A stretch of 64,000 nt of DNA from an uncultured Verrucomicrobia subdivision 3 bacterium (GCA_903835255.1 CAILMI010000012.1:1-64000); one strand, 5' to 3'. Counted from the stretch's first letter, positions 27,249-47,744 are shown. The notes: generated from the letters alone by a model not told the origin. Numbers and translations: made by a program.

Positions 27249-27349
27249 AGTTGCGGGGAGGATTAAACCACAGATGAACACGGTCTGTATATCAATTTCA
27301 GATTTCAATAAACTAGCGAAAACCATTGAAAATCCAATGCAAATTCGCT

Positions 27350-28235: not shown

Positions 28236-28751
28236 TTAAGCGTAAAAATAACCAAGACTGCGAAGCGATGAAAAATTGCCATTGCCGACAACCACATGAT
28301 CTAGCAATTCCATTTTCAAAAGCTGACCGGCGCGGATGAGGTCGCGGGTCACTTTGATGTCTGCCTCTGACGGGGTGCTTTCGCCGCTGGGGTGATTGTG
28401 CATGACGATCACGGCACTGGCGGCGGTGACGATGGCGAGCCGGAACACTTCGCGGGGATGCACAAGAATTGTGTCCATCGTGCCGATTGAAACAAGGTGA
28501 TGTCCTTTGACACGGCGGCGCGTGTTCAAAAGCAACACGGCCAAACATTCACAATCCGGGTTAAAATGGGGATGGCTGGCAATGTGCAAACGCCAATAAT
28601 CGGCGGCTTTGTCGGGTGTCTCGCAATGCTGCAAGGCGTCCGGCGTCGGACATTCGCGCAACGGCGTCACCTTGTATTCATACGGGCTGGCCGCAAACTT
28701 GAACGGTTTAACGAGTCCGGCAAAGCCGGGGAGAATGGTTTCGGTATTCAT
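28236..28751 (-). CDS. RadC-family JAB domain protein
   Basis: A 171-residue protein of the RadC (UPF0758) family. The JAB/MPN metalloprotease-like core has HNHPSGESTPSEAD (the HxH-S-D metal site) preceded by ECLAVLLLNTRRRVKGHHLVSIGT. The helix-hairpin-helix region of chromosomal RadC is missing, as is usual for the short forms found on mobile elements. A strong ribosome site (AAGGAGA, six-base spacing) precedes the ATG. Function is unknown; the old DNA-repair role is not supported. Confidence 0.92.
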   Translation of the reverse strand: MNTETILPGFAGLVKPFKFAASPYEYKVTPLRECPTPDALQHCETPDKAADYWRLHIASHPHFNPDCECLAVLLLNTRRRVKGHHLVSIGTMDTILVHPREVFRLAIVTAASAVIVMHNHPSGESTPSEADIKVTRDLIRAGQLLKMELLDHVVVGNGNFSSLRSLGYFYA

Positions 28752-28764
28752 CGCGGTTCTCCTT

Positions 28765-29145
28765 TCAAGCGGGCTTCACGTCGGCGGCGAAATAGCTGCC
28801 GTAACGCTTGCGCGGGTCATAAGTCGCCCGGTCGTCGGGTATCGTGCCGCAAGGGTGCTGCCACGTCTGGCGGGTGTTGTTCCAATGAAAGCCAAGCTCG
28901 GCCAATACTCGTGTGACGGTGGGAGGCTGCTTGTCTGAAAACTGAATCCAAACCCATTTCCCAACAACCTCCGCCAATTCAAAGAAGTTAGGTGTTTTGC
29001 TGCGGAGTAAAGCCAGCAACTTTTCGGTTTCAAGTTTCCGATTTGCTCGGCGCAATTCCAGATTGATTTTTGGTCTGTCCCCCGTGCTCAACTGTTCGGG
29101 ACGGCTCTGAAGCTCTGATTTTTGATTTTTAAGTTTAGTTTTCAT
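28765..29145 (-). CDS. Hypothetical protein, mobile-element type, upstream of radC
   Basis: A 126-residue protein. The N-terminus is basic and coiled, and the C-terminal half contains WVWIQFSDKQP and LGFHWNNTRQTWQHPCG. This W/H-rich motif recurs in small proteins beside RadC genes on mobile elements. It lies 13 bp upstream of radC on the same strand and so forms an operon with it. A DNA-binding or metal-binding role is possible from the His/Trp/Cys cluster but not shown. Confidence 0.7.
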   Translation of the reverse strand: MKTKLKNQKSELQSRPEQLSTGDRPKINLELRRANRKLETEKLLALLRSKTPNFFELAEVVGKWVWIQFSDKQPPTVTRVLAELGFHWNNTRQTWQHPCGTIPDDRATYDPRKRYGSYFAADVKPA

Positions 29146-29178
29146 GGTCTTTTTTTTGTGCTCTGCTGTTCGGTCCGG

Positions 29179-29292
29179 TCTTTCGCCCTTCACGAAAAAG
29201 CGGAGTCCGCCAGCCTTCCCCCGTGGGAGTGGTCTTCAGAGGGCACCACGAGGGGCAGGCTGGTTTTGCGGCGACGCAGTGAGGGCGAAAGA
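29179..29292. repeat. Long imperfect palindrome (about 114 nt)
   Basis: The outer arms TCTTTCGCCCT and AGGGCGAAAGA pair over 11 bp. Inner arms CCAGCCT / AGGCTGG, CCCC / GGGG and CGTGG / CCACG continue the helix, with small internal loops and an apical loop near 29228-29245. It lies just upstream of the two-gene radC operon on the minus strand, so it may be a leader structure or a remnant of a transposon end. The gap 29146-29658 otherwise holds only the RNA candidate at 29469. Confidence 0.7.
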
Positions 29293-29468
29293 ACGCGCCG
29301 ATGCAGAGGGGAGCACTTGCGGAAAAGGATCTGAAAACGGTTTAATCAATTTTAATCACTGACTCCGCGAAGCGGGCGAAACTGGCGGGCTTCATGGCAC
29401 CCGCATGAGGCATGACGGGAGAGCATCAAACAGGGCTGGGAAGTTGGGACATAGTAATTCTGACGTAT

Positions 29469-29657
29469 GGCCGGGAGTGAGCAGCCGGGAGCCGTGGCTT
29501 GCAGGGTGAAGGGGCAAGATCAAAGGCGCACGGCGGAACACGGACGGCCAAAGGTCAGACTAACTTGGGGGACGAACAAGTGTCATCTGTTGCGCGGTGG
29601 CTTGCCACGCTGAAAGCGAGCGCAACGGATGACTCTTGGAAGGACGGGGGTAAATCC
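29469..29657 (+). ncRNA. Candidate structured RNA, copy A
   Basis: This sequence recurs at 36636-36816. Two blocks are identical: 51 nt (29511-29561) and 32 nt (29591-29622). Around the second block a 13-bp helix (29582-29594 with 29621-29633) differs in sequence between the copies at many positions, but the pairing is largely kept, with five compensatory pair changes. One pair is U-G on the plus strand and would be A-C on the minus, which favours plus-strand transcription. Reading frames are not conserved between copies. Family unknown to me; a HEARO/omega-RNA relation is only a guess. Confidence 0.6.
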
Positions 29658-29658
29658 C

Positions 29659-32600
29659 TCAACTACCCGCTTTGTTGCGCAAGGTTTCGTAGAGGCCCGC
29701 GTGGTTGAGCAGGATGTCTTTCATCCCGTTTTGGACGGTAGCGGAATTTAGCGCCTGCGTGCTCATTAGGGTGTGCGCGTCCAGTGCGCCCATGATGGCG
29801 TTTAGCAACTCGGACTTCAGGTCGGGTGAGTTTGCGAACTGTTCCTTGGTGTTGTTTGCGGCCTGCTGGCGGAGCTTGTCAGACTCTAGCAGCTTGCCCT
29901 TAATCACATTGTTCACATAAACCAGTTTGTCCTGGTCGGTAAGCTCGCCCTCAAAAAGGTCGTTCACCTTTTCGATGATCTCATTCAGCAAGGCTTTCTC
30001 TTTCTCCTGCACACTGCCGCTGCCAGCTTCGGTGATTGGCTCCAGCTTTGGCATTTCTCCGGTGTTCAAAGGCATCGGTTGCCGTCCGATGTTTTTCAGG
30101 TGGTGATGCGTGAGGATCACTTTCGAGAGGTCAATGCCCTCGCGCTCGCGGCCAAACTCAAGCAGCGGTAAAAGGCGTTTGAAAAAGATTGCGCGTTTCT
30201 CAAGCGCGGTGTTGCCGTAGTCGAAAATTTGGGAAAGGAACGTGTAGAGCCGGATGAATGCGCCCAGGTCGGTCTTGAACAAAATGAGCGCGTTCAACTC
30301 GTCTTGCGCGATTTTGGCGGCGGCTTCGTCATTCTTATCCTTCGCCGTTTTCAATGCCTCCTGCGCGGCCTTGTAACGCTTCATCAAGCGGTCTTCCACG
30401 GGCGCAATCGCCGCCAGCAATTCACTCTGTTTCGCGTTCGGATTCAATTCCACCGCCACCACACGGTCAACCTCGAAGTCGTCGTAATGTCCGGCGGCAT
30501 CCAGCTTGGCGCGGAGATTATAGACAAGGTTTGGGTCGGTGGTCGCCGAGAGTTCTGCCGTCGTGTGGTAGGTCTTGAACGCTGCAAGGACTTCCTCGGT
30601 GTCATTCACGAAATCCAGCACATAGGTCGTGTCCTTGCCGGGGTGGGCGCGATTCAGGCGCGAAAGCGTCTGCACGGCCTGAATGCCTGCGAGCCGCTTG
30701 TCCACATACATCCCGCATAGCAACGGCTGATCGAAGCCGGTTTGAAATTTGTTCGCGACGAGCAGGATTTGATACTCGTCGCCTTTGAAGGCTTCTCGAA
30801 TGTCGCGGCCTTTGAGATTTGGATTGAGCGCGTGGCTGTTTTCCGTAAAACCGTCCGGGCCGGATTGCTTGTCGTTCACTTCACCGGAGAAGGCAACGAG
30901 CGTGCCGATCTTGTAGCCGTGTTCCTTGATGTATTTATCAATCGCCAGTTGCCAACGCACGGCCTCAACGCGACTGCCTACAACTACCATTGCCTTGGCC
31001 CGGCCATTCAGCAGCGGAGTGACAAATTTGCGGAAATGCTCAACCACGACTTCAACTTTTTGCGCGATGTTATATGGGTGCAATCGCACCCAGCCCATGA
31101 TGCCCTTCATAGCCGCGCTGCGTTCGACGGTTTTGTCGTCGTAGTCCTTGCCTTCATGCGCCAACTTGAACGCCAGTTTGTAAGGCGTGTAGTTTTTCAA
31201 AACGTCGAGGATAAATTCTTCCTCAATGGCTTGGCGCATGGAATAAACGTGGAACGGCGCGGGGAGATTTCCCGGCCCGGCGGGTTTGGCGGGATCGGGG
31301 CGCGTGCCGAAAAGTTCCATCGTCTTGGTTTTCGGCGTGGCGGTGAACGCGACGAAAGTGATTCCGCCATCGTCGGCCCGTGCTGCCATCTGCGCCGCAA
31401 GCACGTCGTCCATGCTCACTTCGCCGCCGTCGTTCAACTCCTGCAATTCCTCGGGACTCAACACCGCCTTTAGTTTTGCGGCGGCTTCGCCGGTCTGCGA
31501 ACTGTGCGCTTCATCGGCGATCACGGCAAAGCGTTTGCCCTGCGTAGCTGCGAGCTTGCGGACAGCTTCCAACGCAAACGGAAAGGTCTGAATGGTGCAA
31601 ACCACAATCTTCTTGTCGCCCGACAAGGCTTCGGCCAACTCACCGCTCTTGCTGCCTTCGCTGCCTTTGATGGTGGCAACCACGCCGCTCGTGCGCTGGA
31701 AATCAAAGAGGGCTTCCTGAAGTTGTGAATCAATCACCGTGCGGTCGGAGACGACTAGCACCGTGTCGAAAATCTTTTTGGCCGTGGCATCGTGCAATTC
31801 AGCGAGAAAGTGCGCCGTCCATGCAATCGAGTTCGTCTTGCCTGATCCTGCGGAGTGCTGGACGAGATACTTTCCGCCGGGGCCGTCTTTTAGCACGGCC
31901 ACTTGGAGCTTCCGCGTCACGTCGAGTTGGTGAAAGCGCGGGAAAATTACCTTCGTGATCTGCTTCTTCTTGTCACGTTGGGCGATGAGGTAACGCCCAA
32001 GAATTTCCAGCCAGCTTTCACGCGCCCAAACTTTTTCCCATAGATAGGCGGTGCGGTGGCCTGCGGGGTTCACCGGGTTGCCTGCCGCGCCGTCGTTGCC
32101 TTGGTTGAAGGGCAGGAACACCGTAGCCGGGCCGTCCAGCTTCGTGACCATGTGGACTTCGCTGTTGCTCACTGCGAAATGCACAAGCGCCCCGTTGGGA
32201 AACGACAACAACGGTTCGGCGGCTTGGCCTTTGGGCTTGGGGTTGCGGTCAAAACGATATTGGTCAATCGCGTCGCCGATGCTTTGGGTGAAATCAGTTT
32301 TCAATTCCACCGTGGCGACGGGGATGCCGTTGAGGAACAACACTAGGTCAATGCTGTTTTCGTTGTGCTGGGAGTATTTCACCTGCCGCACCACGCGCAA
32401 GCGGTTGGCGGCGTAACGGGCGAGGATTTCGGGATTGATGGCGAGGGCGGGTTTGAACTCCGCCAGCTTCAACGGTTTTTTCAGGCCAAGCAGTTCAACG
32501 CCGTGGCGCAATACATCCAACGTGCCGCGTTGGTCAAGTTGGTCGCGCAGGCGGGCGAGCAAAGTTTCACCCGCTTTGTCGCCGTGATTTTTGACGAGGA

Positions 32601-32769
32601 TTTCCCATGCTTGGGGCTGCGTGGCTTGCACCCATGCTAGAACATCCGCTGGAAACAAAGCCTGTGCGCGGACATAGCCCGCTGCATCGCCCTCAGCATA
32701 GAGCCAGCCGTGGGTGGCAAGGTGCTGGCAAATCTCCGTCTCGAAACAGATTTCTTTATGCAGGCTCAT
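29659..32769 (-). CDS. hsdR: Type I restriction enzyme, R subunit
   Basis: A 1036-residue translocase-nuclease that cuts unmodified DNA in complex with HsdM and HsdS. The N-terminal PD-(D/E)XK nuclease has IDLVLFLNGIPVATVELKTD. The SF2 motor has Walker A QHSAGSGKTNS, DEAHSSQ and FTATPKTK, and a helical C-terminal region follows. Length is normal and no frame break is seen. It overlaps hsdS by four bases (ATGA), so the three subunits are one operon read hsdM-hsdS-hsdR. Confidence 0.96.
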   Translation of the reverse strand: MSLHKEICFETEICQHLATHGWLYAEGDAAGYVRAQALFPADVLAWVQATQPQAWEILVKNHGDKAGETLLARLRDQLDQRGTLDVLRHGVELLGLKKPLKLAEFKPALAINPEILARYAANRLRVVRQVKYSQHNENSIDLVLFLNGIPVATVELKTDFTQSIGDAIDQYRFDRNPKPKGQAAEPLLSFPNGALVHFAVSNSEVHMVTKLDGPATVFLPFNQGNDGAAGNPVNPAGHRTAYLWEKVWARESWLEILGRYLIAQRDKKKQITKVIFPRFHQLDVTRKLQVAVLKDGPGGKYLVQHSAGSGKTNSIAWTAHFLAELHDATAKKIFDTVLVVSDRTVIDSQLQEALFDFQRTSGVVATIKGSEGSKSGELAEALSGDKKIVVCTIQTFPFALEAVRKLAATQGKRFAVIADEAHSSQTGEAAAKLKAVLSPEELQELNDGGEVSMDDVLAAQMAARADDGGITFVAFTATPKTKTMELFGTRPDPAKPAGPGNLPAPFHVYSMRQAIEEEFILDVLKNYTPYKLAFKLAHEGKDYDDKTVERSAAMKGIMGWVRLHPYNIAQKVEVVVEHFRKFVTPLLNGRAKAMVVVGSRVEAVRWQLAIDKYIKEHGYKIGTLVAFSGEVNDKQSGPDGFTENSHALNPNLKGRDIREAFKGDEYQILLVANKFQTGFDQPLLCGMYVDKRLAGIQAVQTLSRLNRAHPGKDTTYVLDFVNDTEEVLAAFKTYHTTAELSATTDPNLVYNLRAKLDAAGHYDDFEVDRVVAVELNPNAKQSELLAAIAPVEDRLMKRYKAAQEALKTAKDKNDEAAAKIAQDELNALILFKTDLGAFIRLYTFLSQIFDYGNTALEKRAIFFKRLLPLLEFGREREGIDLSKVILTHHHLKNIGRQPMPLNTGEMPKLEPITEAGSGSVQEKEKALLNEIIEKVNDLFEGELTDQDKLVYVNNVIKGKLLESDKLRQQAANNTKEQFANSPDLKSELLNAIMGALDAHTLMSTQALNSATVQNGMKDILLNHAGLYETLRNKAGS

Positions 32770-34010
32770 GCGGCTTCCTTTTTCAGTAAGGGGCGGACAT
32801 CAATCTGGCCGGTAACAACGGCTGAAATCAGTGCAGTCCGGCGTTCTTTGAGAAGTTCGATTTGCTTAGAAATCTCAATTAACAGTTTATTCCTCCAATA
32901 AACGGCTTGTGTGACCTTCTCTTGAGTTTGCATGTCAGGAACGGGGATTTTTTCCTTCAGTAGCGAATTTATATTTAGAGGTCTATTTCTGCCTGCCGCG
33001 CCGCGTGAGTTTTCGTTCAATAAAAAATCACCGTGCTTTGTTGATAGCAAAGCAAGTAAGTATTCTGTCAGGACAACCCCAGGTTTTCCGCGTAGCACCG
33101 GATAGCGATGAGATACTACACATCCTGTGTCTTCTTTACCGGCTAATGCAACTGCACCCTCCCATGCAAATTGCCCGCTGATAATGAGGTCTCCATCTTC
33201 AATCCAGAAAAAGTCAGAGTCCCCCATGTCATCTTTCTCGCTGGCATCTTTATGAAATAGCCCTCTGCCTCTATTGTAGAGGCCAATGCGAGTGTATTCT
33301 TCACCTTCTTTTTGGATAACTGGGCGCGAAATAATTTGAGCTACCGAACCGAATCGTAGCTGCTTGGTTTCTGGCAAATCAAAGGCGGACAAAACAAGAG
33401 ATTTTACTTTTTCTGTAAGTAACACAATCAATCGCTCTTGCTCCGCTATCAGTTCATCAATCTTCGCCGTCTCCCGATCCAGAAATTCGAGAATCGCTTG
33501 TTGCTCACCCTTTGGAGGGACGCCGACGTATATTGACTTGAGGATGTCCCAATTAATTGAGCAACGATGTTCCAAAATGCCATTTCCAAAAGATTGCGCA
33601 TAGGTTTGAAACGCACGGTTTTCAAAAATCCGAAATGCGAAACGCGATTCGACAACATCGTTTTGTGGTTTTAGCACAATGTAAACAGGGCTACAAACAC
33701 CGTCATAATCGGACAGCCCGTATGAGCCTATCCCATAGTTCATGCTGTTTATGACGAAATCCCCACGGGTGACGATTTTACACTTGGTCAAGTCTTCTGG
33801 TTTTTTGTTCCCAACGTCACCTTTTTCCGCATACGGAATGATGCCGACATTTGCCATCAGTGAGAGGTAGTCCTGACACTTTGCACCATCATTTTTGGCT
33901 GTCCGCTCATGCACAATTGCTCGGCATGGCAGCATTTCCCAATGCTCCGGCACTTCGCCCAGCCTCTCCACGCCACTGCTCTTGTATTTCTGGTAGCTGG
34001 GGAAACTCAT
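32766..34010 (-). CDS. hsdS: Type I restriction enzyme, specificity subunit
   Basis: A 414-residue protein with two target-recognition domains and the conserved helices between and after them. The first domain starts [22 protein letters not shown]; the central helix has [24 protein letters not shown]; the C-terminal helix has [24 protein letters not shown]. It sets the DNA sequence recognised by the complex. The gene is AT-richer than hsdR and hsdM, as is common for variable specificity genes. It overlaps both neighbours by four bases. Confidence 0.95.
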
Positions 34011-35749
34011 TTGGTCAGTCCCCCGATCATGGTCAATATGCGGTCGGTGACGCCTTTCAACTCAGCGTCAATTTCACTTAATGGGCGCGGCGGTTGGAAA
34101 ACATAGAAGTGCCGGTTGAATGGAATATCATAGCCAACCTGGGTCTTGTCGTGGTCAATCCACGCATCCGGCGCGTGAGGCAATACCTCGCGCTTGAAAT
34201 AATTTTCCACGTCTTCGCTCAACGGAACATTTTCGGTGTCGCGCAAACTGGAATCTGGCACCGGCTTGTCTTTGCCTTTGCCCTTGGTGCCGAGAATGAT
34301 TTTGCCTTTCGCATCGCGCTCCGGGCGCTCAACGGTGATGGTGCGATAGCCAAAATCCTCGTTTTTGAAAATGAGGCTGATCGGCACGCCGTCCTTGGAA
34401 TCTTTTTTAAAATTGCCAAACTGCTTGGTGATTTCCTCGATGTGGTCGGGACTGAGTTCTTTGCGTTTGCAGCCAAGACTTTTACGCATCTTCTGCCAAA
34501 AGCTGCTGGCGTCAATCAACTGCACCTTCCCTTTACGCGCGGTGGGCTTCCGGTTGCTGACAATCCAGACGTAGGTGTTGATAGGGGTATTGTAAAACAT
34601 ATCCGTCGGTAAACCGATGATGGCTTCGACAAGATCATTTTCCAAAACGTAACGCCGTATCTCGCTCTCGCCCGAACCTGCGCCGCCAGAAAAAAGTGGC
34701 GAGCCATTGAGAACAATTCCAAAGCGGCTGCCGCCGTCCACGGCGGGGCGCATTTTGGAAATTAGATGCAGCAGAAAAAGCAGCGAGCCATCGCTGATGC
34801 GCGGCAAGCCGGGACCGAACCGGCCATTGAAACCTTGTTCCTCGGCTTCCTTGCGGACTTCCCGCTCAATCTTTTTCCATTCCACGCCAAAGGGCGGATT
34901 GGAAAGCGAGTAGTCGAAATGTTTCCCCGGCAGGCCGTCAGCGGAGAGGGTGTTGCCAAGGATGATGTTGGCGATGTCCTGGCCCTTGATGAGCATGTCT
35001 GCCTTGCAGATGGCGTAGGACTCCGGGTTTAGTTCTTGCCCATACATGACGAGCCGGGCGTCGGGATTCAGGCTGGCAAGATGTTCCCCGCCCACACTCA
35101 ACATGCCGCCGGTGCCTGCCGTAGGATCGTAGAGCGACCGCACGACGCCGGGCTTGGTCAGGGCTTCATCATCTTCGATGAAAAGCAGATTAACCATGAG
35201 CCGGATGACTTCACGCGGGGTGAAGTGTTCCCCGGCGGTCTCGTTGGAAAGTTCGGCAAATTTGCGGATGAGTTCTTCAAACACCGCACCCATTTGGGCA
35301 TTGCTGACGACTTCGGGATGCAGGTCAATGGCGGCGAATTTTTCCGTGACGAGATAGAGCAGCCCGGACTTGGCGAGTTTATCAATCTGAGTGTGAAACT
35401 CGAAACTCTCAAAAATGTCGCGCACGGCGGGCGAGAATGCTTGCACGTAGGCGCGGAGATTTTCGCCGATGTGGTCTTGGTCGCCCATGAGCTTCTTCAA
35501 GTCGAGCGGCGATGTGTTGTAAAAAAGCTGACCGGATTTTTTGAGCAAGAAAGGTTCGGGGTTCACTCCGGCCTTCGTGCGTTTTTCCAACTCGGCAAGC
35601 ACTGCGGCCTTGGTTGGCTCCAGGACGCAATCAAGACGGCGCAAAACGGTGAATGGCAAAATGACTTTGCCATATTCGGATTGCTTGTAATCGCCGCGCA
35701 ACAAATCGGCGACCGACCAGATGAAGGATGAAAGATTTGTGTTACTCAT
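34007..35749 (-). CDS. hsdM: Type I restriction enzyme, DNA methyltransferase subunit
   Basis: A 580-residue N6-adenine methyltransferase subunit. The N-terminal helical domain (about 1-150) is followed by the SAM site [10 protein letters not shown] and the catalytic NPPF within SNPPFGVEW. It protects host DNA and forms the core of the restriction complex. The ATG at 35749 is chosen because the family starts with a short helix leading to [30 protein letters not shown]. It is the first gene of the operon. Confidence 0.96.
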
Positions 35750-36192
35750 GTGTTTTCGATACCGGAAAAAGGAGTTGCGAAAGTGGTGCAACCGTCACCC
35801 TTCCGAAAAGCATAGTCAAAATTCTTGATGGCTTGTGCAAACATTGGCAAATCGGTTGTTAAAAACGGCGCTGGCATTCAATGTCTTATAGCGAGAAATA
35901 GCGACGAAATAAACAAAAATGGCACAGAGCGAGCGGCACACGGTTTGATTGGGCTGCTTGGGCGGCTGGGCGGGCATTCCAGCCGCCCGGTTTCCGGTCA
36001 ATCCTCCCCCGGCAGCATAACGGTGGTGGCCGGTTCCGGCGCATCCAGACGATGCCCCAAAGTCGCCCTGCTCGTGTGTAGGGATGGAAGATTATTCATA
36101 CGAGCAAATCTGCGGAAGCTTCTTTGCAACACGGGTAGAATCTGTTAGAAATGGCTAGCAGCGAACCGCAGCAACACATTTAGGAAAATCGT
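35750..36192. other. Intergenic region between hsdM and the TIR-like fragment
   Basis: No gene is seen in these 443 bases. A perfect 10-bp hairpin (GGGCGGCTGG / CCAGCCGCCC) lies at 35960-35988. The hsdM promoter should lie in the part nearest 35750, but no clear boxes stand out. An AGGA ribosome site precedes the ATG at 36193. Confidence 0.6.
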
Positions 36193-36453
36193 ATGGCGAC
36201 TAAAAAAAGAGTGTTTATTAGTTTCGATTACGACAATGACGAAGGCACGAAAATCATGCTCGCCGGACAGGCGAAGCTGCCTGATAGCCCGTTCGATTTT
36301 ACAGACGCATCGGTAAGGGATCATTTAACTGGCGACTGGAAAGACAAAGTTCGACGCAGGATGGACAATATTGATGTCGTCATTGTTCTTTGTGGAGAGA
36401 AAACACATAGCCGTGTCGCTGGCATGGCCCATGCCCTTCGTCGCTGGAAATAA
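36193..36453 (+). pseudogene. Truncated TIR-like (MTH538/DUF1863 type) defence protein
   Basis: An 86-residue frame starting KKRVFISFDYDNDE and continuing LTGDWKDKVRRRMDNIDVVIVLCGEKTHS. This is the first two-thirds of the MTH538-type TIR-like domain, the family that includes Thoeris ThsB. The usual continuation (an alternating helix and YFLL strand) is replaced after THSRVAG by unrelated sequence and a stop. An intact ribosome site (AGGA) precedes the ATG. It is probably a remnant of a phage-defence gene broken by recombination, though a short product could still be made. Confidence 0.7.
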
Positions 36454-36635
36454 AACGCCCCGCGAGAGCGGGAATCAGAAGTTTGAAAAAGATGGCGTAG
36501 CAGCAAGCGGGCTACGGTGAGATAAGAAGGCGTCCCGTTAAAACAAAACGCGCCATGTCAAAAACACTAAACAAAAATTCTCTAGCCCCGCAGGGTCGCC
36601 AAAGGTTCAAATCCGGTCAGTTCGGACTTTTGGCA

Positions 36636-36816
36636 GGCCGGGAGTAGCCGGGAGCCGTGGCTTGGCGGGGATGGGGCAAGATCAAAGGCGCACGGCGGAA
36701 CACGGACGGCCAAAGGTCAGACTCACATGGGCAAGGACAAGTGGCACAAGCTGCGCGGTGGCTTGCCACGCTGAAAGCGAGCGGCTGCTTGTGCCTCTTG
36801 GACGGCGGGGGAAATT
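36636..36816 (+). ncRNA. Candidate structured RNA, copy B
   Basis: Second copy of the element at 29469-29657, same strand. The identical blocks lie at 36673-36723 (51 nt) and 36752-36783 (32 nt). The variable helix is formed by 36743-36755 with the segment ending at 36796 (GGCACAAGC pairs with GCTTGTGCC). Directly upstream, 36593-36635 differs completely from copy A and contains a tRNA 3'-end-like stretch. In the gap 36454-36842 I see no other feature. Confidence 0.6.
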
Positions 36817-36842
36817 TACACCTTCTCGATCTTGTGCTGGCG

Positions 36843-37409
36843 TTATGAAATCGCTTCTACCCAACCAATCAGCTTTGTCTCAAATCCGTGGCTGCCTTTG
36901 GCCAGTCCCCGGTGTTCAAGTTCACGTTGCAACATTGGTTCGAGCTTTTCGCGAAGCAATGATTCCATCGCCTCCGAAGTTGCACCATTCTGCGACGATG
37001 GTTGGGCGTGCCAGAGTGTTTCGGGGTTGCGCTCCCACGGGACAAGGCGTTTGCCTTCTGTGTCCACGGCGAGCGGCAGGATGATGCGTTTCACCTGGCC
37101 TTTGTCTCCACGGGCTTCAACAGCCCATACCGCGAGAACGCCGCTGTGTCCGTCCGGTGACTGCACCCGAACGCCAAGCTGCTCCGGCGGGATGTCGCGA
37201 AAAAGCCGCAAGTAGGAAGTGACAATTGGATGGTCGAGACCGAGCAACTGGACTTTCTCCTTTTGCAATGAGAAATCGCGATCGGTCGTTAATAGCGTTT
37301 CGATTTTTGTGTTCCCGTCAATCCAAGCGAACAGCTTGTCACCACGGTTGGTGAAGGTATCGGTTTCGGCGCTGGCGGCGTCGCTAACGAAGCTCACCAG
37401 TGCGCCCAT
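36843..37409 (-). pseudogene. C-terminal remnant of an SNF2-type helicase
   Basis: A 188-residue frame whose sequence (LLGLDHPIVTSYLRLF, PEQLGVRVQSPDGHSGVLAVW, then RIILPLAVDTEGKRLVPWE) resembles the extreme C-terminal domain of large SNF2-family helicases found in defence loci such as DISARM (DrmD-like). All motor motifs are missing, so it is probably the tail of a gene whose first part was lost. No ribosome site is evident at 37409. The attribution is from memory of family sequences and is tentative. Confidence 0.5.
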
Positions 37410-37464: not shown

Positions 37465-39120
37465 TCATCCCGCGTTTAATTTGAACATCCGTATCAGGTC
37501 GCGGTTAAGGCGGTCGTTTGCCAGTCCAATACGGGCCAAATCATTGCTGGTTTCCAAAGCGTGTTCTCGGACAACGGGATCGTCAAACGCATCGCGGCTG
37601 ATTTGTTCCGAGGCCAGACTAGCCGTTAGTTTGGTCATTTGGGAGTGCGCGTCTTGCAGCGCCATTGTCCGGCTGTTGGCGTCAGTTTCAGTTTCAAGAA
37701 CGCGGACGAACTGGTCAATACTGCCGAGACGCATTATCAACTCCTGTTTGGATTGGGCGAATTTTGAAAGCTTGTCCTGCTGGTTGCTTTGCTCGTCCAT
37801 GTTCTGCATCTGCTGTTGAAACTCGCGCTGCTCGCGCTGATTTTGCGCCTCCTGATTCTTTTGGGCGGCGTCTTGTTTCATGGACACCTGAACTCCTGCG
37901 ATGATGTGGGCAACGATGAAAACCAAAACCAGCCCGAAAACACCGCCCATGATTACGCCCATCCGGGCATTGTCGGCGTCACTATTCAGGACGCCAGCGC
38001 CGCTTGACCAGAAATGGGAAAAGCCGGTTTTCGTTGCGGTTTCTGCCGCCGCCTTGTCGTAGGCATTGTTCGCCATGCTGATGATCCACCCCATCCAGAT
38101 GACGGAAAGTGCAAAAAACCAAATCCACCGCGCTTTCTTTTTGTAGGCGTCGTAATAGGCGTCCGGTTTGGTCGGTGGCGTCCGTCGCAGGACGGCAACT
38201 TGGAAACAGTATTTCCAAGCGAGGTTGGCAATCCGGCCAACGAGCCTAAATTCTTGGACTGGCAAATCAACGATGATGATCTTGCCCCCGAAGGCATCCT
38301 CCGGTTTGATGTTGGTGTCGGCGGAAAAAAGTTCCCGCAAGGGCCGCGTGACGAGCGGCCTTGCCAGCATCGAAAACGTCAAGCTGATGATACTGCGCGT
38401 TTTTTCAGCCAGATTGGGAAACTCGACTTCCCAATATTTTTGGCAGCGCATGAAGTCGTCGCGGATTCCCGCGCTGGCTTTTTTGGTGGCATCGTCCGCC
38501 TCCTTCAAGATTTTCCCGCAGGCGCTTTCCGTCTTCCATTGGTCACTGCTGGCCTGCTCTGGATTCAACGGAGCGGATGCGACGATGTCAGCAAGTAGTG
38601 GCAGGGAAACGGGTATTTCGGCAAACAGGGGCAAATCCACCAGATTGGTATTCATGTGGTGAAGGGCATCTTCCCAAAATTTGTTTGATCCGCCGCCCCC
38701 TTCGGTTGCCCCGCTGCCCCCGGAAATCGCCGTGGCGATTTCGTCCAGAAGATTGACGATGTTAATCGCCATGCCGCCGCCCGCCTCCGGGCGGCTGGCC
38801 TCCCACGCCATAAAATTGAAGCGGTTTTGACCGCTGGCGTCCACGATGACAAGGTCATCGGTTCGGTCGCATTCCGCCGCCCAATGCTCCCATTGGCGGC
38901 GTTCCTCCTTCTTGGCGCAAAGCACCAGCCCGCCGAAACCGGCGGCTAGGTAGCCGTAGGCCAGGTGCTTTGCTGGCCCGGAAGTTTTTCCACTGCCGGT
39001 TGCGCCGAACACACAGACGCCCGTGAGGGCGTCGGACAGGCGGAAGCCTTCCCCATTGCCCCAATCCCGCAACACCGTTTGTGGGTGGAATTCGGGCAAC
39101 TGTGTTTTGCCGCTGGTCAT
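37465..39120 (-). CDS. Coupling-type ATPase fused to an unrelated membrane/coiled-coil domain
   Basis: A 551-residue protein. Residues 1 to about 315 resemble a TraG/TraD-type coupling ATPase: Walker A FGATGSGKTSGPAKHL, then KIIIVDLPVQEFRLVG, the strand that should precede the second half of the motor. The conserved ADEAQ segment that should follow is missing. From about 318 the frame enters a different protein: PDAYYDAYKKKARW, two membrane helices (about 325-342 and 378-400), a Gln-rich coiled coil and a helical tail. It looks like an in-frame deletion fusion of two transfer genes; ATPase activity is doubtful. Confidence 0.65.
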   Translation of the reverse strand: MTSGKTQLPEFHPQTVLRDWGNGEGFRLSDALTGVCVFGATGSGKTSGPAKHLAYGYLAAGFGGLVLCAKKEERRQWEHWAAECDRTDDLVIVDASGQNRFNFMAWEASRPEAGGGMAINIVNLLDEIATAISGGSGATEGGGGSNKFWEDALHHMNTNLVDLPLFAEIPVSLPLLADIVASAPLNPEQASSDQWKTESACGKILKEADDATKKASAGIRDDFMRCQKYWEVEFPNLAEKTRSIISLTFSMLARPLVTRPLRELFSADTNIKPEDAFGGKIIIVDLPVQEFRLVGRIANLAWKYCFQVAVLRRTPPTKPDAYYDAYKKKARWIWFFALSVIWMGWIISMANNAYDKAAAETATKTGFSHFWSSGAGVLNSDADNARMGVIMGGVFGLVLVFIVAHIIAGVQVSMKQDAAQKNQEAQNQREQREFQQQMQNMDEQSNQQDKLSKFAQSKQELIMRLGSIDQFVRVLETETDANSRTMALQDAHSQMTKLTASLASEQISRDAFDDPVVREHALETSNDLARIGLANDRLNRDLIRMFKLNAG

Positions 39121-39628
39121 GCTAGACAGCGTGGCAAGCCCCGGTTTGCCCGGCAAGGCAAAACGGGCTTCGGGGTGTCAGGGGCTTGCCCCTGCCAGAG
39201 CGCAAGGCTCTAGCGGCATCCAACCGGCGGACGGTTGGGCATGGTTCCAAGGGTGGCAACCTTTGGGCAGGGTCTAGGGCGGCACGCCCTTGTGCGGGGG
39301 TTTAAGGGGCGGCAAAGCCCCTGCCGGAGCGTCAGAGCGGAGGCGGTGAAAGCGGGGTCTAGGGGACGGATTTGGAGTCCCCTTGCGCGGTCAACATCGG
39401 CACGATGTATAACCGCGCTATTCAGGCTTTTTCCCCTGCTGCTGTTTTCGCCGGGGATGTGCGGCGAAGCCAAGCGGCCACGGTGTCTTATATGGGTGTG
39501 CCGGGTCGCTTTTGCCCGTGTGGGGCAAAACGCGGAAACCAGCACTCAGAGCCAATCTCCGAGGGACGGAGCCGTTAATTTTTGATATAATGTTCTATAT
39601 GGAGGGCGGCTGGCGACTGTAGTGGGGA
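39121..39628. other. Divergent intergenic region with hairpin array; possible oriT
   Basis: Between the coupling-ATPase gene (minus) and the relaxase gene (plus) lie 508 bases without a gene. Six different short hairpins follow one another at 39179-39194, 39197-39211, 39220-39238, 39247-39266, 39276-39290 and 39305-39322. A TATAAT box at 39586-39591, 38 bp before the relaxase ATG, is a plausible -10 element, though no good -35 is seen. Position beside the relaxase gene makes this the most likely place for a transfer origin. Confidence 0.5.
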
Positions 39629-40525
39629 ATGGCAATATACCGATGCGAAGCAAGAATTATCAGCCGCGAGAAACGGGGACATTCCGTGGTCGCCGCCAGC
39701 GCCTACCGGGCTGGCCTCAAACTCAAGGACGAACTTAGCGGCAAGATGCACGACTATTCCCGCCGCAGCAAGGGCGTCGTTGAGACGGCCATTGTCGGCC
39801 CCGATAATGCGCCCGGATGGGTGCATGATCCGGGACAGCTTTGGAACAAAGTCGAGGCGGGCGAGAAGCGCAAAGATGCACAACTTGCACGCGAATTTAT
39901 TCTGGCAGTTCCCAAGGAACTGTCCCCTCAAGCCCAATTCCAGACGGCGCTGGATTGGGCGAAAAAAGAGCTGGTCGCTTCCGGCATGATTACGGAAATT
40001 TCCCTGCACCATAGCAAGACCGGCAAGAATCCCCATGTCCACGTCCTCTGCACCATGCGGAAGCTGGACGGCGAAAATTTCAGCGCCAAGAAACCCCGCG
40101 AATGGAATGACGTGAAGCTGCTGCTTCACCAGCGCGAGTCCTGGGCGGACGCCGTCAATGCCGCCTTGGAAAAGGCAGGTCGCCCGGAACGGGTTGACCA
40201 TCGGTCGCTAAAAGACCGGGGCATTGACCAGCTTCCGCAGCCTAAAATCGGCAAGGAAGCAACCGCCATGAAACGCAAGGGCATCCTGCAAGACCCGGAG
40301 CGGTTCAAGGCCGTCCGGGAAGTGAAAATGATGAACGAAGTTAAGGCCATGATGAAGGCCGTATTGAAGCGCGGCGAAGTGGCTCAAGTTGGGATGGGTG
40401 ATACATGGTGGGAAAAATCCATCACCTTCATGTCCCGCATCCGGGAACAAGCCGCGACGGTCGTTAAAGACTCTTGGCGGAAACTGGTGAGCCGTCCAAA
40501 GGACGGGCCGGAAATTGAAATGTGA
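39629..40525 (+). CDS. MobA/MobL-type (MobQ) relaxase
   Basis: A 298-residue DNA-nicking relaxase domain protein. The N-terminus MAIYRCEARIISREKRGHS and ASAYRAGLKL carry the catalytic Tyr region. The three-His metal motif is in ISLHHSKTGKNPHVHVLC, with an upstream acidic REF. The C-terminus is short, with no helicase or primase. It would nick oriT and lead single-strand transfer using conjugation machinery from another element. The coupling ATPase beside it appears broken, so the element may be immobile or depend fully on a helper. Confidence 0.88.
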   Translation: MAIYRCEARIISREKRGHSVVAASAYRAGLKLKDELSGKMHDYSRRSKGVVETAIVGPDNAPGWVHDPGQLWNKVEAGEKRKDAQLAREFILAVPKELSPQAQFQTALDWAKKELVASGMITEISLHHSKTGKNPHVHVLCTMRKLDGENFSAKKPREWNDVKLLLHQRESWADAVNAALEKAGRPERVDHRSLKDRGIDQLPQPKIGKEATAMKRKGILQDPERFKAVREVKMMNEVKAMMKAVLKRGEVAQVGMGDTWWEKSITFMSRIREQAATVVKDSWRKLVSRPKDGPEIEM

Positions 40526-41623: not shown

Positions 41624-41634
41624 GCGATGGTTGG

Positions 41635-41716
41635 TGCGGATGATCGGACTTGAACCGATACTCTGTAAGGAACGGGAACCTAAATCCCGCGCGTCTGCCA
41701 ATTCCGCCACACCCGC
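41635..41716 (-). tRNA. tRNA-Leu (UAG)
   Basis: On the minus strand the acceptor arms GCGGGTG and CATCCGC pair with one G-U, with discriminator A and encoded CCA (41632-41634). The anticodon stem-loop CGGGATTTAGGTTCCCG gives anticodon TAG. A long variable arm fits a class II leucine tRNA. It lies inside the island, 56 bp from a tyrosine recombinase gene, so it is a likely integration target. Confidence 0.93.
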
Positions 41717-41772: not shown

Positions 41773-42963
41773 TTATTCCGTTTCATCGGCTGGCCGCTTG
41801 CCTAGCTTCGGTTTTTTAACATTGATGGCTGCGGCATCAAGTGTGTTTTTAATATGCGATGCGTAATACTTCTCAATCATCTCAACGCTGGTGCGGCAAT
41901 TTTTTGCAACTTGATAAATATCCGCGCCCTCCATCAGGCGCAGGCAAATGTAAGTATGCCGCAGACTGTATGCGGTGCGCCGGTTGCCGTCGCGGTCAAA
42001 CTTTAATTCGAGTTCTTTCAAGATGGCATTCAATAATTCGCGCTGGCTCTTGGATTTTCCAAAGACACGGTCGGTTGGCTTTGTCTTGTTGCGCTTCCGC
42101 AACCGTTCAAAAGGCAGGATCGCGCCAGTCATGCTTTTGCAATAACCAACCCCGCGCTTGCCGCGCACTTCGATTTCGAGGATGCGTTCGCCCGTTGCTT
42201 CATCGGTGACGATGGCAACGTCTCGAAATTCGAGGCGGGCGGCTTCGTCCGGCCTCAAGCCGGTGTTGGCCATGAACAAAACATAGTCGTGCAAGTTCTC
42301 GCACGCTGTTTTCCAGCGGGCATTCTTGGGAGTTTTCGCCCGCTGGCGGGTCGCTTGGTAAAGCTGCTTGTATTCTGCGGGCGAAAACCACGCCCGGTGG
42401 CCGATCTTCCCGGACATTTTGTAAGGGGCGGAAAGGTCGGGCAAATAAGCCAGCCAGCCGTTCCGGTTGGCAGTTTTCAAAACGTGTCGCAACACGACGA
42501 TTTCCTGCTGGAGCGTTTTACGCGCTGGTCGCACCGGCTGGCCGGTGTGCCGATTCTTTCGGGAAGTGGTGCGGTGGATGCGATATTCCTGCACCAAGCC
42601 AGGGGTGATTTCAGTCAAGAGTTTGTCACCAAAAAACGGCAGCAGATGAACTTTGAGCGCAAGCCCCAAACTGGCGACATATTCGGGACTCCGTTCGCCG
42701 ATGGTGAGGGCTTGGTATTCGGGCAAGAATTTTTCCGCTGCGTCCTCAAAGGTCTTGCCGATTTTCAACTCGCCGCCGCGCATCTTGCCTTTGAGTTCTA
42801 AATACCAGTCCTCGGCAATGGCCTTGGCGTGGGCAAAGCTGTCCTCCTTGGTGGATTTCCGCCAATTTTTCCCGGCCAAGAAAGTTGAACATTGCCATTT
42901 GGTGCTATTTTCCCGGCGGTAAACATGAAGTTTCCCGCCCATTAACTCGACCTGTTCGACCAT
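41773..42963 (-). CDS. Tyrosine recombinase (integrase) next to tRNA-Leu
   Basis: A 396-residue integrase. The N-terminal arm-binding and SAM-like core-binding domains (about 1-200) are followed by a catalytic domain with Arg I in NTGLRPDEAARL, the SLRHTYI box (Arg II and His) and the tyrosine in IEKYYASH. All expected catalytic residues are present, so it is probably active. An AGGAGG ribosome site lies just before the ATG at 42963. TGTGTAA repeats lie upstream and are candidate binding sites. Confidence 0.93.
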   Translation of the reverse strand: MVEQVELMGGKLHVYRRENSTKWQCSTFLAGKNWRKSTKEDSFAHAKAIAEDWYLELKGKMRGGELKIGKTFEDAAEKFLPEYQALTIGERSPEYVASLGLALKVHLLPFFGDKLLTEITPGLVQEYRIHRTTSRKNRHTGQPVRPARKTLQQEIVVLRHVLKTANRNGWLAYLPDLSAPYKMSGKIGHRAWFSPAEYKQLYQATRQRAKTPKNARWKTACENLHDYVLFMANTGLRPDEAARLEFRDVAIVTDEATGERILEIEVRGKRGVGYCKSMTGAILPFERLRKRNKTKPTDRVFGKSKSQRELLNAILKELELKFDRDGNRRTAYSLRHTYICLRLMEGADIYQVAKNCRTSVEMIEKYYASHIKNTLDAAAINVKKPKLGKRPADETE

Positions 42964-44570: not shown

Positions 44571-45521
44571 TCAAGCTTGGTCTGTAATGTCCGTCATCTG
44601 TTGTAGGGTATATCGAGGCCGCCCTTGGCCTACTTGTATAACGTGAAATTTCGCCGTCAAATGCTTATGCAGAATTCCGTTCAATACATCTGCGTCTTCA
44701 ATTTCAGGGCCGACTTTGCCCCGCAAAATTTCGTCGCCGTCAAGCACCTTAAATTCAAAGGTTCTGCTTTTTGGCAATACCCCCTGAAATTCGCCGCGAA
44801 AACTTTCGTCAGCTTCTTTGATATTGTTGGACAGAAGCCTCGCCGCACTTTCACGGACTTGCTCTACACCGCCAAATCTAAAAACCGTTTCCTTAAATTC
44901 AACGCCACACCAAGCATCCTGTTGTGAAAGATAATCCAAAAACTCCCATGCCTTTTTTACTGCGCGAGGATGAATTTCATCAACCAACTCAGCGATGTCA
45001 TCATCGCTTCCTTCAGCAGCAACCTGAAAAAGCTTTTCAAGCTTTTCCATTGCGACCTCGGGTCTATTTTCAGGTTTAATCCCTTCAACAAATAAATCGA
45101 CTTGGCCATTTGTGTTTTCGATCTGAAGGGGGGGGAGCTCGAATTCAAATCCAAAAGACCCAATGGCCGTGCCAGTAATGAGCAACTGGTTTTTTTCTTT
45201 ATCGGGAATCGGCCCCATGTATCGAAGACTTTCAGAGATACCCGCCACGACAGCAGAAAACGCTTCGGTAAAATAAGTGGAAGCCCTTGAAGCAAATTCA
45301 GCGGATGCACCATAAGAACCGACAACCGGCCTGCCCCGGAACGTGAGCCGTGCCTTTCGAGGCAGTTCTAGCGGATTAAATCCAGCAATTGCTTCCCGCG
45401 CAGCTTTCAGGCGAGATTCCAAACCCATCCGGCTGATAACATTTTCTGCCGGAATTCGAGCCAAGAGGGATTCCAATTCCTTGACTTCCGAGGCGAACGA
45501 AATGTAATCGTTATGGTTCAT
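44571..45521 (-). CDS. Hypothetical partner of the nucleotidyltransferase-fold protein
   Basis: A 316-residue soluble protein that overlaps the upstream gene by four bases (ATGA at 45518). It starts MNHNDYISFASEVKELESLL, has a predicted coiled N-terminus, a central beta-rich region and a C-terminal domain ending QGRPRYTLQQMTDI. No family recognised. Tight coupling to a nucleotidyltransferase-fold gene on a defence-rich island suggests a two-component toxin-antitoxin or defence module; this is inference from context. Confidence 0.7.
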   Translation of the reverse strand: MNHNDYISFASEVKELESLLARIPAENVISRMGLESRLKAAREAIAGFNPLELPRKARLTFRGRPVVGSYGASAEFASRASTYFTEAFSAVVAGISESLRYMGPIPDKEKNQLLITGTAIGSFGFEFELPPLQIENTNGQVDLFVEGIKPENRPEVAMEKLEKLFQVAAEGSDDDIAELVDEIHPRAVKKAWEFLDYLSQQDAWCGVEFKETVFRFGGVEQVRESAARLLSNNIKEADESFRGEFQGVLPKSRTFEFKVLDGDEILRGKVGPEIEDADVLNGILHKHLTAKFHVIQVGQGRPRYTLQQMTDITDQA

Positions 45522-46090
45522 TGTCTCGCAAGCTCCTGTGCAATTTGAGCCATGAGTGCCATAGCAATATTGTCCTCGTCCTCTGAAATGTCCACTTGGA
45601 CAAAGCCTTTCCAAAGGCCGTTTCGACGATGAGACCACATGCTATACCAATATGAAATCAAGGTTACATGGGTTTCCCCCAGGGAGACGCCTAGCACATA
45701 AGGATATGCATCAACGTGGTAAATTTGCTTGGTGTTTTGGACATCGAACAAGTCAGCAACTTGGGGAAGAAAAGCTGTTTCATTCAATCCATCTGGCAGA
45801 TTGAAAAACGTAACAACGTCAACGTCGTTTGGGGGCTCCTGAATTAAAACTTCCTTATGTTCCATGAAGCTTCCATTGAGCCATTGAAAACCGGTCGAGA
45901 TTCCTCTTTTCCGCAATTCTGCTCGGTAATTCAAAAGTCCCCGCAAAATTTCTAGGCGTGCAGGGGTTTTTGCAAATCTTTCGACGACTTCAGAAAGTGA
46001 AGCCTTGTAAGGAGAGCGATCAGGGCTGTGCCCTGCCGCCCCCGGCCTGATAGGCGGCAAAACCGCCGATATATTCCATTCAGGAATCAT
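45518..46090 (-). CDS. Nucleotidyltransferase-fold protein (DUF6932-like)
   Basis: A 190-residue protein. The N-terminus IPEWNISAVLPPI and the motif WLNGSFMEHKE followed by PPNDVDVVTFF are the G-S-x and D-x-D signature of a nucleotidyltransferase fold, as in DUF6932 proteins. Nucleotidyltransferases of this kind often pair with a second gene in toxin-antitoxin or abortive-infection systems. It is the first of two overlapping genes. Composition is AT-rich relative to the chromosome. Confidence 0.7.
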   Translation of the reverse strand: MIPEWNISAVLPPIRPGAAGHSPDRSPYKASLSEVVERFAKTPARLEILRGLLNYRAELRKRGISTGFQWLNGSFMEHKEVLIQEPPNDVDVVTFFNLPDGLNETAFLPQVADLFDVQNTKQIYHVDAYPYVLGVSLGETHVTLISYWYSMWSHRRNGLWKGFVQVDISEDEDNIAMALMAQIAQELARQ

Positions 46091-46400: not shown

Positions 46401-47417
46401 TCAAGCCGCAACTAACTTTTGCTGCGCCGCTTTCGCTTCGTAATCCTCAAGTGACGGCGCAATGATGATTGCCTTCTTCGCATACGCGCGGTGAATCGCC
46501 TTGCTGTTGTGGCCTAGCGCGGCCTGTGCGAACCGTTCCGGCATCCCGACAATCTTCGCCCGTTCCGCCCATGCGTAGCGGTAGCTGTGCAACGTCACAC
46601 CCGACACGCCCGCCCGTTCGCAACGGCGGCGAAAGCGGCTGGCGCGGTCGCTCTGCGAGAACGTGGACAACTTCGGAAACAAAACGCCGGTCGTCGGTAG
46701 ATGGCTCAAGACGGTTTCCAATTTCTTGCTGATGGTGAACTGTGCAAGTGATCCGGTCTTTTGCCGGAAATAAGAAATCGTCCGCGTCTGCTGGTCAACG
46801 TCCTCGGCTTTGAAGTTCACCGCGTCGCTCTGCGCTGCGCCAGTTTCCCAAAGCAATTCCAGATACAATTTCCATTCGGCGTTTTTCTCCTGCTGCAAAA
46901 CGCTCTGGTGTTCGTCCTGGGTGATGCCCCGCCGGTCTTTGGCTTCATACTTCGGCCAAAGGTAGGGGGCGACAATCGGAATCGCAATCCAGCCCAAACT
47001 CAAGGCGAAGTTGTGAAGCCGTTTTAGAAAATAGACGATGGACACTTTGCCGTCTTTGAACACGGCAAAGAAATCGTCGGTCGTTGTCTCTAACAGTTTC
47101 TTGTTTCGCAGTCCGTCAAAGGACGGCGATTTGAACACGCTGGCGTAACGCTCGCGGCTCGTGTCCTTGCCGCGTGATTGTAATTGCTGCATGACGGTCT
47201 GCCATGTGCGTTCTACAAACGCGGGGTCACTGGCCGTCAGGTAGGCGCGGGCAAGGTGCAAGTTTAGCGTTGGCTGCTGCTGCGCCGCGTTGCGGGCGTT
47301 TAGCAAGCTGCTGGCCTCGGCTTCGTCTTTGGTGCGTAGGCTGGTCTGTTTGCCGGTCGCGCTGTCCTGCATATAGAACATTGCGCCGCGCCGGAACATC
47401 GTGAATTTTGTTTTCAT
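46401..47417 (-). CDS. Tyrosine recombinase of the right island end, atypical Arg I box
   Basis: A 338-residue recombinase. The C-terminal catalytic domain has LHSYRYAWAERA (Arg II and His), LGHNSKAIHRAYAKKA (His and Tyr) and the strand region YFRQKTGS. The first box, normally TG-x-R, reads ETGAAQSDAV and lacks Arg. This variant is shared, as far as I recall, by many verrucomicrobial integrases. It ends next to a strong terminator and starts 123 bp from the right 21-bp repeat. It is the best candidate for the enzyme that inserted the island. Confidence 0.87.
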   Translation of the reverse strand: MKTKFTMFRRGAMFYMQDSATGKQTSLRTKDEAEASSLLNARNAAQQQPTLNLHLARAYLTASDPAFVERTWQTVMQQLQSRGKDTSRERYASVFKSPSFDGLRNKKLLETTTDDFFAVFKDGKVSIVYFLKRLHNFALSLGWIAIPIVAPYLWPKYEAKDRRGITQDEHQSVLQQEKNAEWKLYLELLWETGAAQSDAVNFKAEDVDQQTRTISYFRQKTGSLAQFTISKKLETVLSHLPTTGVLFPKLSTFSQSDRASRFRRRCERAGVSGVTLHSYRYAWAERAKIVGMPERFAQAALGHNSKAIHRAYAKKAIIIAPSLEDYEAKAAQQKLVAA

Positions 47418-47744
47418 AACTGGCTTTCTCTGTTTCGAGATACCAGTCCCGTTTCAACGGCGTTTGTGAACGCCAGTGGTGGCAAAGTTTCAGCAAGTTC
47501 TAGCCAGTTTTGGCGAATTGTTTTACCATCCGCCCCATGACTGACACTTTTGCTGACAGTGGCCGTCCATCCGGCGAGCAAACCCTAATAAACAAAGGGT
47601 TTAATTAAACCCGCCACAGATGGACACGAATGGACACGGATATATTTCCAAAAAGCCGGCCCTCGCAATAACGCCGAGGCGGCAAGGGAAAGAGAAGACC
47701 GGGCTTCAGTATCGTTTTTTCGTCTCCTTCGCGCGCCGCTCTTT
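47418..47744. other. Right flank of the island
   Basis: No gene is seen in 327 bases. It holds the right copy of the 21-bp repeat (47540-47560). It also holds AT-rich sequence with AAAGGGTTTAATTAAACCC near 47596 and a tandem GATGGACACGAATGGACACGG near 47627. Part of the latter resembles CACAGATGAACACGG near rsfS (around 27267), a second faint match between the island flanks. Confidence 0.6.
47540..47560. repeat. Candidate attachment site, right copy of 21-bp direct repeat
   Basis: ACTGACACTTT, then TG, then CTGACAGT. It matches 27389-27409 except for the central two bases. It lies between the right-hand recombinase and nadD. Confidence 0.55.

Follow-up and report, generated by a model that had tools for sequence, protein, structure and literature searches.

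Two hairpin copies on a verrucomicrobial integrative element as candidate short members of a family of large, structured phage-origin RNAs

In a 64,000-nucleotide stretch of DNA from an uncultured Verrucomicrobia subdivision 3 bacterium (the window), two related hairpin-bearing sequences, copies A and B, lie on an integrative mobile element. Judged from sequence comparison, A and B are, on balance, probably short representatives of a new family of RNAs that are large, highly structured and originate in phages. The original prediction described two structured RNA candidates that flank a type I restriction system; the observation itself is confirmed and is larger than first described, and its interpretation is partly supported. 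The features needed for the argument are listed below with their window coordinates.

27284-47613, no strand: integrative mobile element, 20.3 kb, holding copies A and B
28239-28751, minus: RadC-like JAB protein, downstream of X (Pfam PF04002, 1.4e-36)
28768-29145, minus: X, a 126-aa protein, fold unassigned (11 homologues aligned, more in prophages)
29146-29457, plus: leader of copy A, with further long hairpins including TCTTTCGCCCTTCAC/GTGAGGGCGAAAGA and ACTGGCG..CATGAC
29458-29559, plus: P1 of copy A (TTCTGAC ... GTCAGA closure, 1x1 mismatch, conserved internal loops)
29577-29638, plus: P2 of copy A (base CAAG...CTTG; apex of two small hairpins, GTGG-CTTG-CCAC and GCTGAAAGC)
29659-32769, minus: HsdR, stop codon 21 nt past the P2 end of copy A
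32766-34010, minus: HsdS
34007-35791, minus: HsdM
36193-36453, plus: ThsB/TIR-like gene, cut short by the left edge of the copy B leader (junction at about 36420)
36421-36620, plus: leader of copy B, of the other subtype, its left side broken inside a leader-hairpin apex
36621-36721, plus: P1 of copy B
36738-36800, plus: P2 of copy B
39629-40525, plus: MobQ relaxase (MobA/MobL; NCBIfam NF041496, 1.1e-64; Pfam PF03389, 1.9e-64)
41632-41716, minus: tRNA-Leu inside the element
46404-47417, minus: Int2, a tyrosine recombinase adjoining the right end

Copy A (29458-29638) and copy B (36621-36800) lie on the plus strand, and each consists of two hairpins, P1 followed by P2. The two copies are real and stand where they had been placed: they have in common an exact 49-nt core, which none of 100 shuffles matched, and are 84% identical overall. 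Their starts needed correction, since the 5' end lies 11-15 nt upstream of the positions given, at the closure of P1. There, TTCTGAC (29458) or TTCGGAC (36621) pairs with GTCAGA (29554-29559 or 36716-36721, respectively) to close a hairpin of about 100 nt. The long helix noticed originally is P2, and the alignment columns bear out the five pairs said to differ between the copies in both bases (133/188, 136/185, 137/184, 138/183 and 140/181). Compared with shuffled sequences, the plus-strand fold has a z of -5.9 for A and -3.3 for B, and the minus-strand fold a z of -6.2 and -1.7, respectively. A sequence search of the bacterium's own genome (3.17 Mb) found no third copy.

Relatives were found by DNA search in 9 of 59 related genomes, this genome included. 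The covariance-model search proposed with the original prediction yielded covarying homologues in 22-26 of 320 genomes of the order, 22 being matched by model R1 and 26 by the P1 model R2, with 1-3 hairpin copies per genome. The original prediction therefore survived the refuting outcome it had named, a lack of further covarying homologues. Among 388 genomes drawn from the phylum, R1 gave one match besides this genome, at a marginal E-value, and the matches of R2 in a class search all fell inside the order. Note that the E-values of these home-made models are rough and that the genomes, G094 excepted, are drafts or MAGs. In an alignment of 18 P1 sequences, 87.8% of cells are paired and both bases changed in 20 of 34 pairs, and none of 500 shuffles reached any of the five measures used; when the structure was slid along the alignment, the paired fraction dropped to 29-38%. 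The covariation result is repeated by held-out P1 matches, whose alignment was fitted to the model. The earlier claim of selection for structure and not for protein thus holds.

The view that the sequence belongs to no recognised family also stands. A cmscan against Rfam 15, applied to the window, to copy A at E up to 10 and to prophage arrays, gave no match in the element. Neither the DNA nor protein X had a match in the plasmid and phage collections, and a viral contig collection likewise gave none. HEARO, proposed originally together with IscB, shares with the hairpins the character of a structured RNA on mobile DNA. However, the Rfam scan, which included RF02033, was negative for it up to E 10, and no IscB-type gene stands beside the elements examined, the neighbours being restriction-modification (RM), RadC, HNH, X and relaxase genes. 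As far as these searches reach, the structure family is absent from Rfam and, within the phylum, almost confined to this order.

The strand that folds can be read from mismatches inside the stems, which were located by Watson-Crick pairs only, with wobble disallowed. These mismatches are G-T in 55 cases and A-C in 9 (p 3.5e-9), and in an independent prophage set 56 and 13 (p 1.7e-7). Because a double-stranded DNA feature would give G-T and A-C equally, it is the plus strand, as had been favoured, that folds in single-stranded form, as RNA or ssDNA, and selection on this strand for single-strand folding is shown. The same bias rules out a double-stranded cruciform or protein-binding palindrome, as well as a 5' or 3' UTR of the minus-strand genes (X, RadC and Hsd). 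The structure is not part of the messages of those genes, since they lie on the minus strand. The G-T excess is also compatible with folded ssDNA and to that extent counts against the RNA-family reading.

That the copies lie on mobile DNA is confirmed by the borders of the 20.3-kb element and by an empty site. The att repeats are 16 bp long (CACAGATGRACACG), with CACAGATGAACACGG at 27269 on the left and CACAGATGGACACG at 47615 on the right. At the empty site in the relative G001 (contig L079), the left flank matches up to L079:1945 and the right flank from L079:1930, an overlap of exactly 16 bp, and the interior of the element has no match there. The element contains genes for HNH, RadC and X, copy A, HsdR-S-M, the truncated ThsB-like gene, copy B, a VirD4-like protein (a label that reads a P-loop region, with no family scan behind it), the MobQ relaxase, tRNA-Leu, two tyrosine recombinases and a sigma-like protein. 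With its integrase, att repeats, relaxase and empty site, it is an integrative mobilisable element; no capsid or packaging genes were recognised in it. Homologues of Int2 adjoin the right end of sister elements, and one occurs in a prophage contig (L157, 41% identity). A scan limited to sigma-70-type promoters found none on either strand in 29050-29700 and 36420-36860, and no terminator was found on the plus strand of the element; both results count against the RNA-family reading.

Upstream of each copy, a hairpin-rich leader of about 300 nt was found. The leaders fall into two subtypes that are conserved among relatives, so that the upstream sequences, described earlier as different, are not unrelated; conservation within each subtype likewise speaks against the suggested 5' guide or mobile junction. 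Modules of the copy A leader are also found 5' of P1 in prophages, and the copy B leader breaks at about 36420, where it truncates the ThsB/TIR-like gene. X is always divergent from the hairpin array, and a structural search with its predicted fold (pLDDT 76) gave no credible match.

The longest arrays are found in prophages, between terL and the portal gene. Several hairpin matches adjoin portal, scaffold and major head genes. Genomes G094 and G241 show the order terL-[X, DUF6573 or RM operon, on the opposite strand]-array-portal, and G040 and G147 show a partial terL-array-portal order on contigs that break off; the terL-array-portal loci are L066, L147, L149, L071 and L072. Here terL is named from a P-loop motif and its place before portal, with no family scan. 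A terL search of the order that was blind to the hairpin was positive in 48 of 313 genomes, and twenty loci were fetched. Nine contigs cover terL to portal in full, all with a gap before portal; eight of these carry X, and the exception, L205, carries DUF6573. R2 detected P1 in 10 of the 20 loci, further to the earlier prophages and always on the late-gene strand; six of the ten reach portal, and four contigs end before it. At L195 and L200, two informative prophage loci, R2 gave no match, which counts against the RNA-family reading.

The gap from X (or DUF6573) to portal measures 2.2-3.9 kb (1 kb in L195) and is mostly without convincing genes. With a detector that counts only long, nearly ungapped stems, 10-18% of gap bases lie in long stems at nine of ten loci (6% at L195), against 2-5% in shuffled sequences and 0-6% in downstream coding DNA. 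The position of the array in prophages is confirmed by the terL-blind search.

The prophage hairpins follow a common order across about 1.2 kb, although their length and number vary, and segments of this ordered array have counterparts in the window's leader, P1 and P2. An alignment of six prophage arrays has a fold z of -19.5, a value that rests on 20 column shuffles, and contains 83 double-change pairs versus 29 after column shuffling. The array shows two marks of a large ornate phage RNA, an extensive covarying fold and a place in a non-coding stretch of prophages. The module belongs to a prophage family and to integrative elements that derive from, or share parts with, that family. The flanking of a type I restriction system, emphasised originally, applies in the window and not as the underlying context.

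A palindromic insertion sequence, or a REP/MITE-like repeat without a product, is hardly tenable in the face of this conserved terL-X-array-portal synteny, the conserved internal loops and the strand bias. The elements are indeed scattered and some are fragmentary, and the ORF bordering a weak match in L074 looks like a RAYT-like transposase (by reading of the ORF, with no family-library scan). However, REP/MITE repeats were rejected for copy number, 1-3 per genome being too low against tens to hundreds.

Another possibility is that the folded molecule is the ssDNA of the transferred strand in conjugative mobilisation: an Frpo/ssi-like ssDNA promoter, a single-strand origin or an oriT that would drive X-RadC-DUF6573 from the incoming strand. 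Frpo is defined by -35 and -10 elements. It is a hairpin-forming single strand upstream of leading-region genes on plasmids, methyltransferase genes included (PMC11541004), and our family resembles Frpo/ssi in that a single strand able to form hairpins precedes establishment-type genes on mobile DNA, a positional likeness seen in the integrative elements only. A leading-region ssDNA promoter was favoured at first because the window element carries MobQ and because the X operon, whose template strand is the folded plus strand, has the array immediately upstream. This reading was lowered because terL and portal surround the longest arrays: the longest and most regular arrays belong to prophages with terminase and portal, where a conjugative ssDNA stage is absent. 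In addition, the element has no -35/-10 match, its many hairpins stand in fixed order, unlike Frpo/ssi, and some sister elements (G057 and G012) lack a MobQ homologue. We consider the conjugative explanation distinctly unlikely, and RNA is preferred to it because prophages contain the fullest arrays and the scan gave no promoter signature.

If RNA, the array might act in cis on the late transcript, by processing, antitermination or stability, to separate terL from portal expression, and survive as a relic in integrative elements. The phage arrays do lie always on the late strand, in the terL-portal interval. However, integrative elements express nothing downstream on the array strand, their cargo being on the opposite strand; compensatory changes nevertheless persist in P1 and P2, both between A and B and against sisters; and an array of at least 1.2 kb far exceeds the length that such signals require. 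We judge a cis-acting element unlikely. That the array is conserved in elements without a downstream portal gene argues that it is more than a leader for the portal transcript, and a self-contained RNA is preferred to a late-message cis element because integrative elements without a downstream late gene keep the covarying structure. Both preferences, over ssDNA and over a cis element, are provisional.

The reading we adopt, a self-contained RNA, would work as follows. In phages the array would be transcribed with the late genes, and in integrative elements from a promoter of its own; the transcript would build up as a stable non-coding RNA and may act as RNA, as a scaffold, cage or decoy, in keeping with the genomic behaviour of GOLLD and ROOL. 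Phage-derived defence islands would retain the array in shortened form. GOLLD, ROOL and other large ornate phage RNAs can reach high abundance. GOLLD is a large, ornate structured non-coding region of phages and prophages, often near tRNAs (PMC12286853, PMC7567579); its RNA increases upon lysis (PMC12286853), and in one prophage it is not needed for phage production (PMC7567579). ROOL is likewise a large ornate RNA borne by phages and prophages (PMC12286853). Our family is similar to GOLLD as a structured phage/prophage non-coding region, and the window element too holds a tRNA. It differs in having no Rfam match, in consisting of separate long hairpins of variable number where GOLLD has a single fixed fold whose 3' domain is conserved, and in its setting, as a putative RNA, in the terL-portal gap, here in one Verrucomicrobia order. 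With ROOL it shares phage/prophage carriage, but in the Rfam search it has no sequence or model similarity to it, and its architecture and hosts are different. By analogy, then, the hairpin family is comparable to GOLLD and ROOL in genomic behaviour and is a member of neither. The variation in hairpin length and number counts against the RNA-family reading, as does a stem divergence far above our expectation for GOLLD or ROOL. If that reading is true, another phylum holds a separate family of large ornate phage RNAs, with a fixed prophage position and strong covariation.

In integrative elements without head genes, the X module and a short array persist beside defence cargo. The same element ends occur in G057 (11.7 kb), G012, G079, G013 and G241. 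Directly 3' of the hairpins, the cargo is a type II RM system in G057, Gabija and then a type I system in G035, a type I RM system with PrrC in G012 and a type IIG enzyme in G001. The HsdR of G035, near another hairpin copy, is 96% identical to that of the window, and L063 (G033) has two copies with a cytosine methyltransferase in between. Defence neighbours were scanned at selected loci only, and no enrichment statistic is claimed.

Such variation of defence cargo at the same place would suit an attC-like folded recombination site for cargo exchange, with A and B as the borders of a defence cassette, as would the truncated copies (L018, L023 and the B leader) that break in or near hairpin apexes. 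However, breaks of this kind are equally expected from ordinary palindrome instability. By eye, neither a recombinase cut site nor conserved R boxes could be seen, there is no gene-plus-site cassette array, and the G-T bias is also present in prophages without cassette exchange. The site is therefore very improbable, and integron cassettes as such were rejected on the varying orientation of the cargo, which lies on either strand (L063).

Like P4, PICIs and IMEs, the elements combine an integrase, att sites and variable anti-phage cargo with some prophage-shared genes; they differ in the hairpin module X-RadC-DUF6573 and, in some members, a MobQ relaxase. A further idea, which we regard as doubtful, is that a giant modular hairpin RNA (at least 1.2 kb) from the phage terL-portal gap has a short form on satellite islands that targets the helper phage or its packaging, which would link phage and satellite at the level of RNA. 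The self-contained RNA would, if real, have natural short forms on satellite-like islands beside defence systems, and comparison of phage and island forms would make its function testable. The element family represents a new set of mobile carriers for restriction systems and Gabija. Two loci depart from the usual arrangement: G021 (L016) is a rearranged exception in which an efflux operon is present, and in G001 (L114) the leader is present and P1 has the conserved base with a short apex.

In L016, a locus from a related genome of the same order, the 126-aa protein X, which is divergent from the hairpin array, is fused in frame after residue about 91 to a repeat-type protein, and this fusion (L016:3524-5893) is a rearranged left end. 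At L063:7575-12639, three C-terminal fragments of DUF6573, another module protein, are present, two of them followed by a P2-containing element, and a methyltransferase lies between these units; we read this layout as module ends that accreted repeatedly. In the L111 element, an HsdR gene (87% identical) is joined directly to the module gene RadC, and X, the leader and the hairpins are absent.

In the window, the leader of hairpin copy B intrudes with its left end into a ThsB/TIR-like gene (36193-36453) and truncates it. The junction, at 36420, falls in or near the apex of a leader hairpin, and other truncated copies, in L018 and L023, are likewise broken at hairpin apexes. Further long hairpins occur near the portal gene in prophage loci (L205:4358-4427 and L191/L194; e.g. 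GCGGCCCTGCTGGAATGTCTGGTGTGTCTCA), apart from the main array.

The integrative element also contains a VirD4-like ORF (37465-39156) that, judging from its matches, looks like a chimera: residues 1-334 match L023 (67%), and the match to residues 335-561 (84%) lies in L017, in an ORF of its own. A tRNA-Leu (TAG; 41632-41716) and a second tyrosine recombinase (41773-42963) also lie inside the element. The two-gene unit at 44571-46090 (products of 355 and 190 aa) is possibly a defence or toxin-antitoxin pair; the 190-aa product matches PADLOC PDC-M63A, and the unit is kept at 78-80% in the related genome G033, where it adjoins another hairpin copy.
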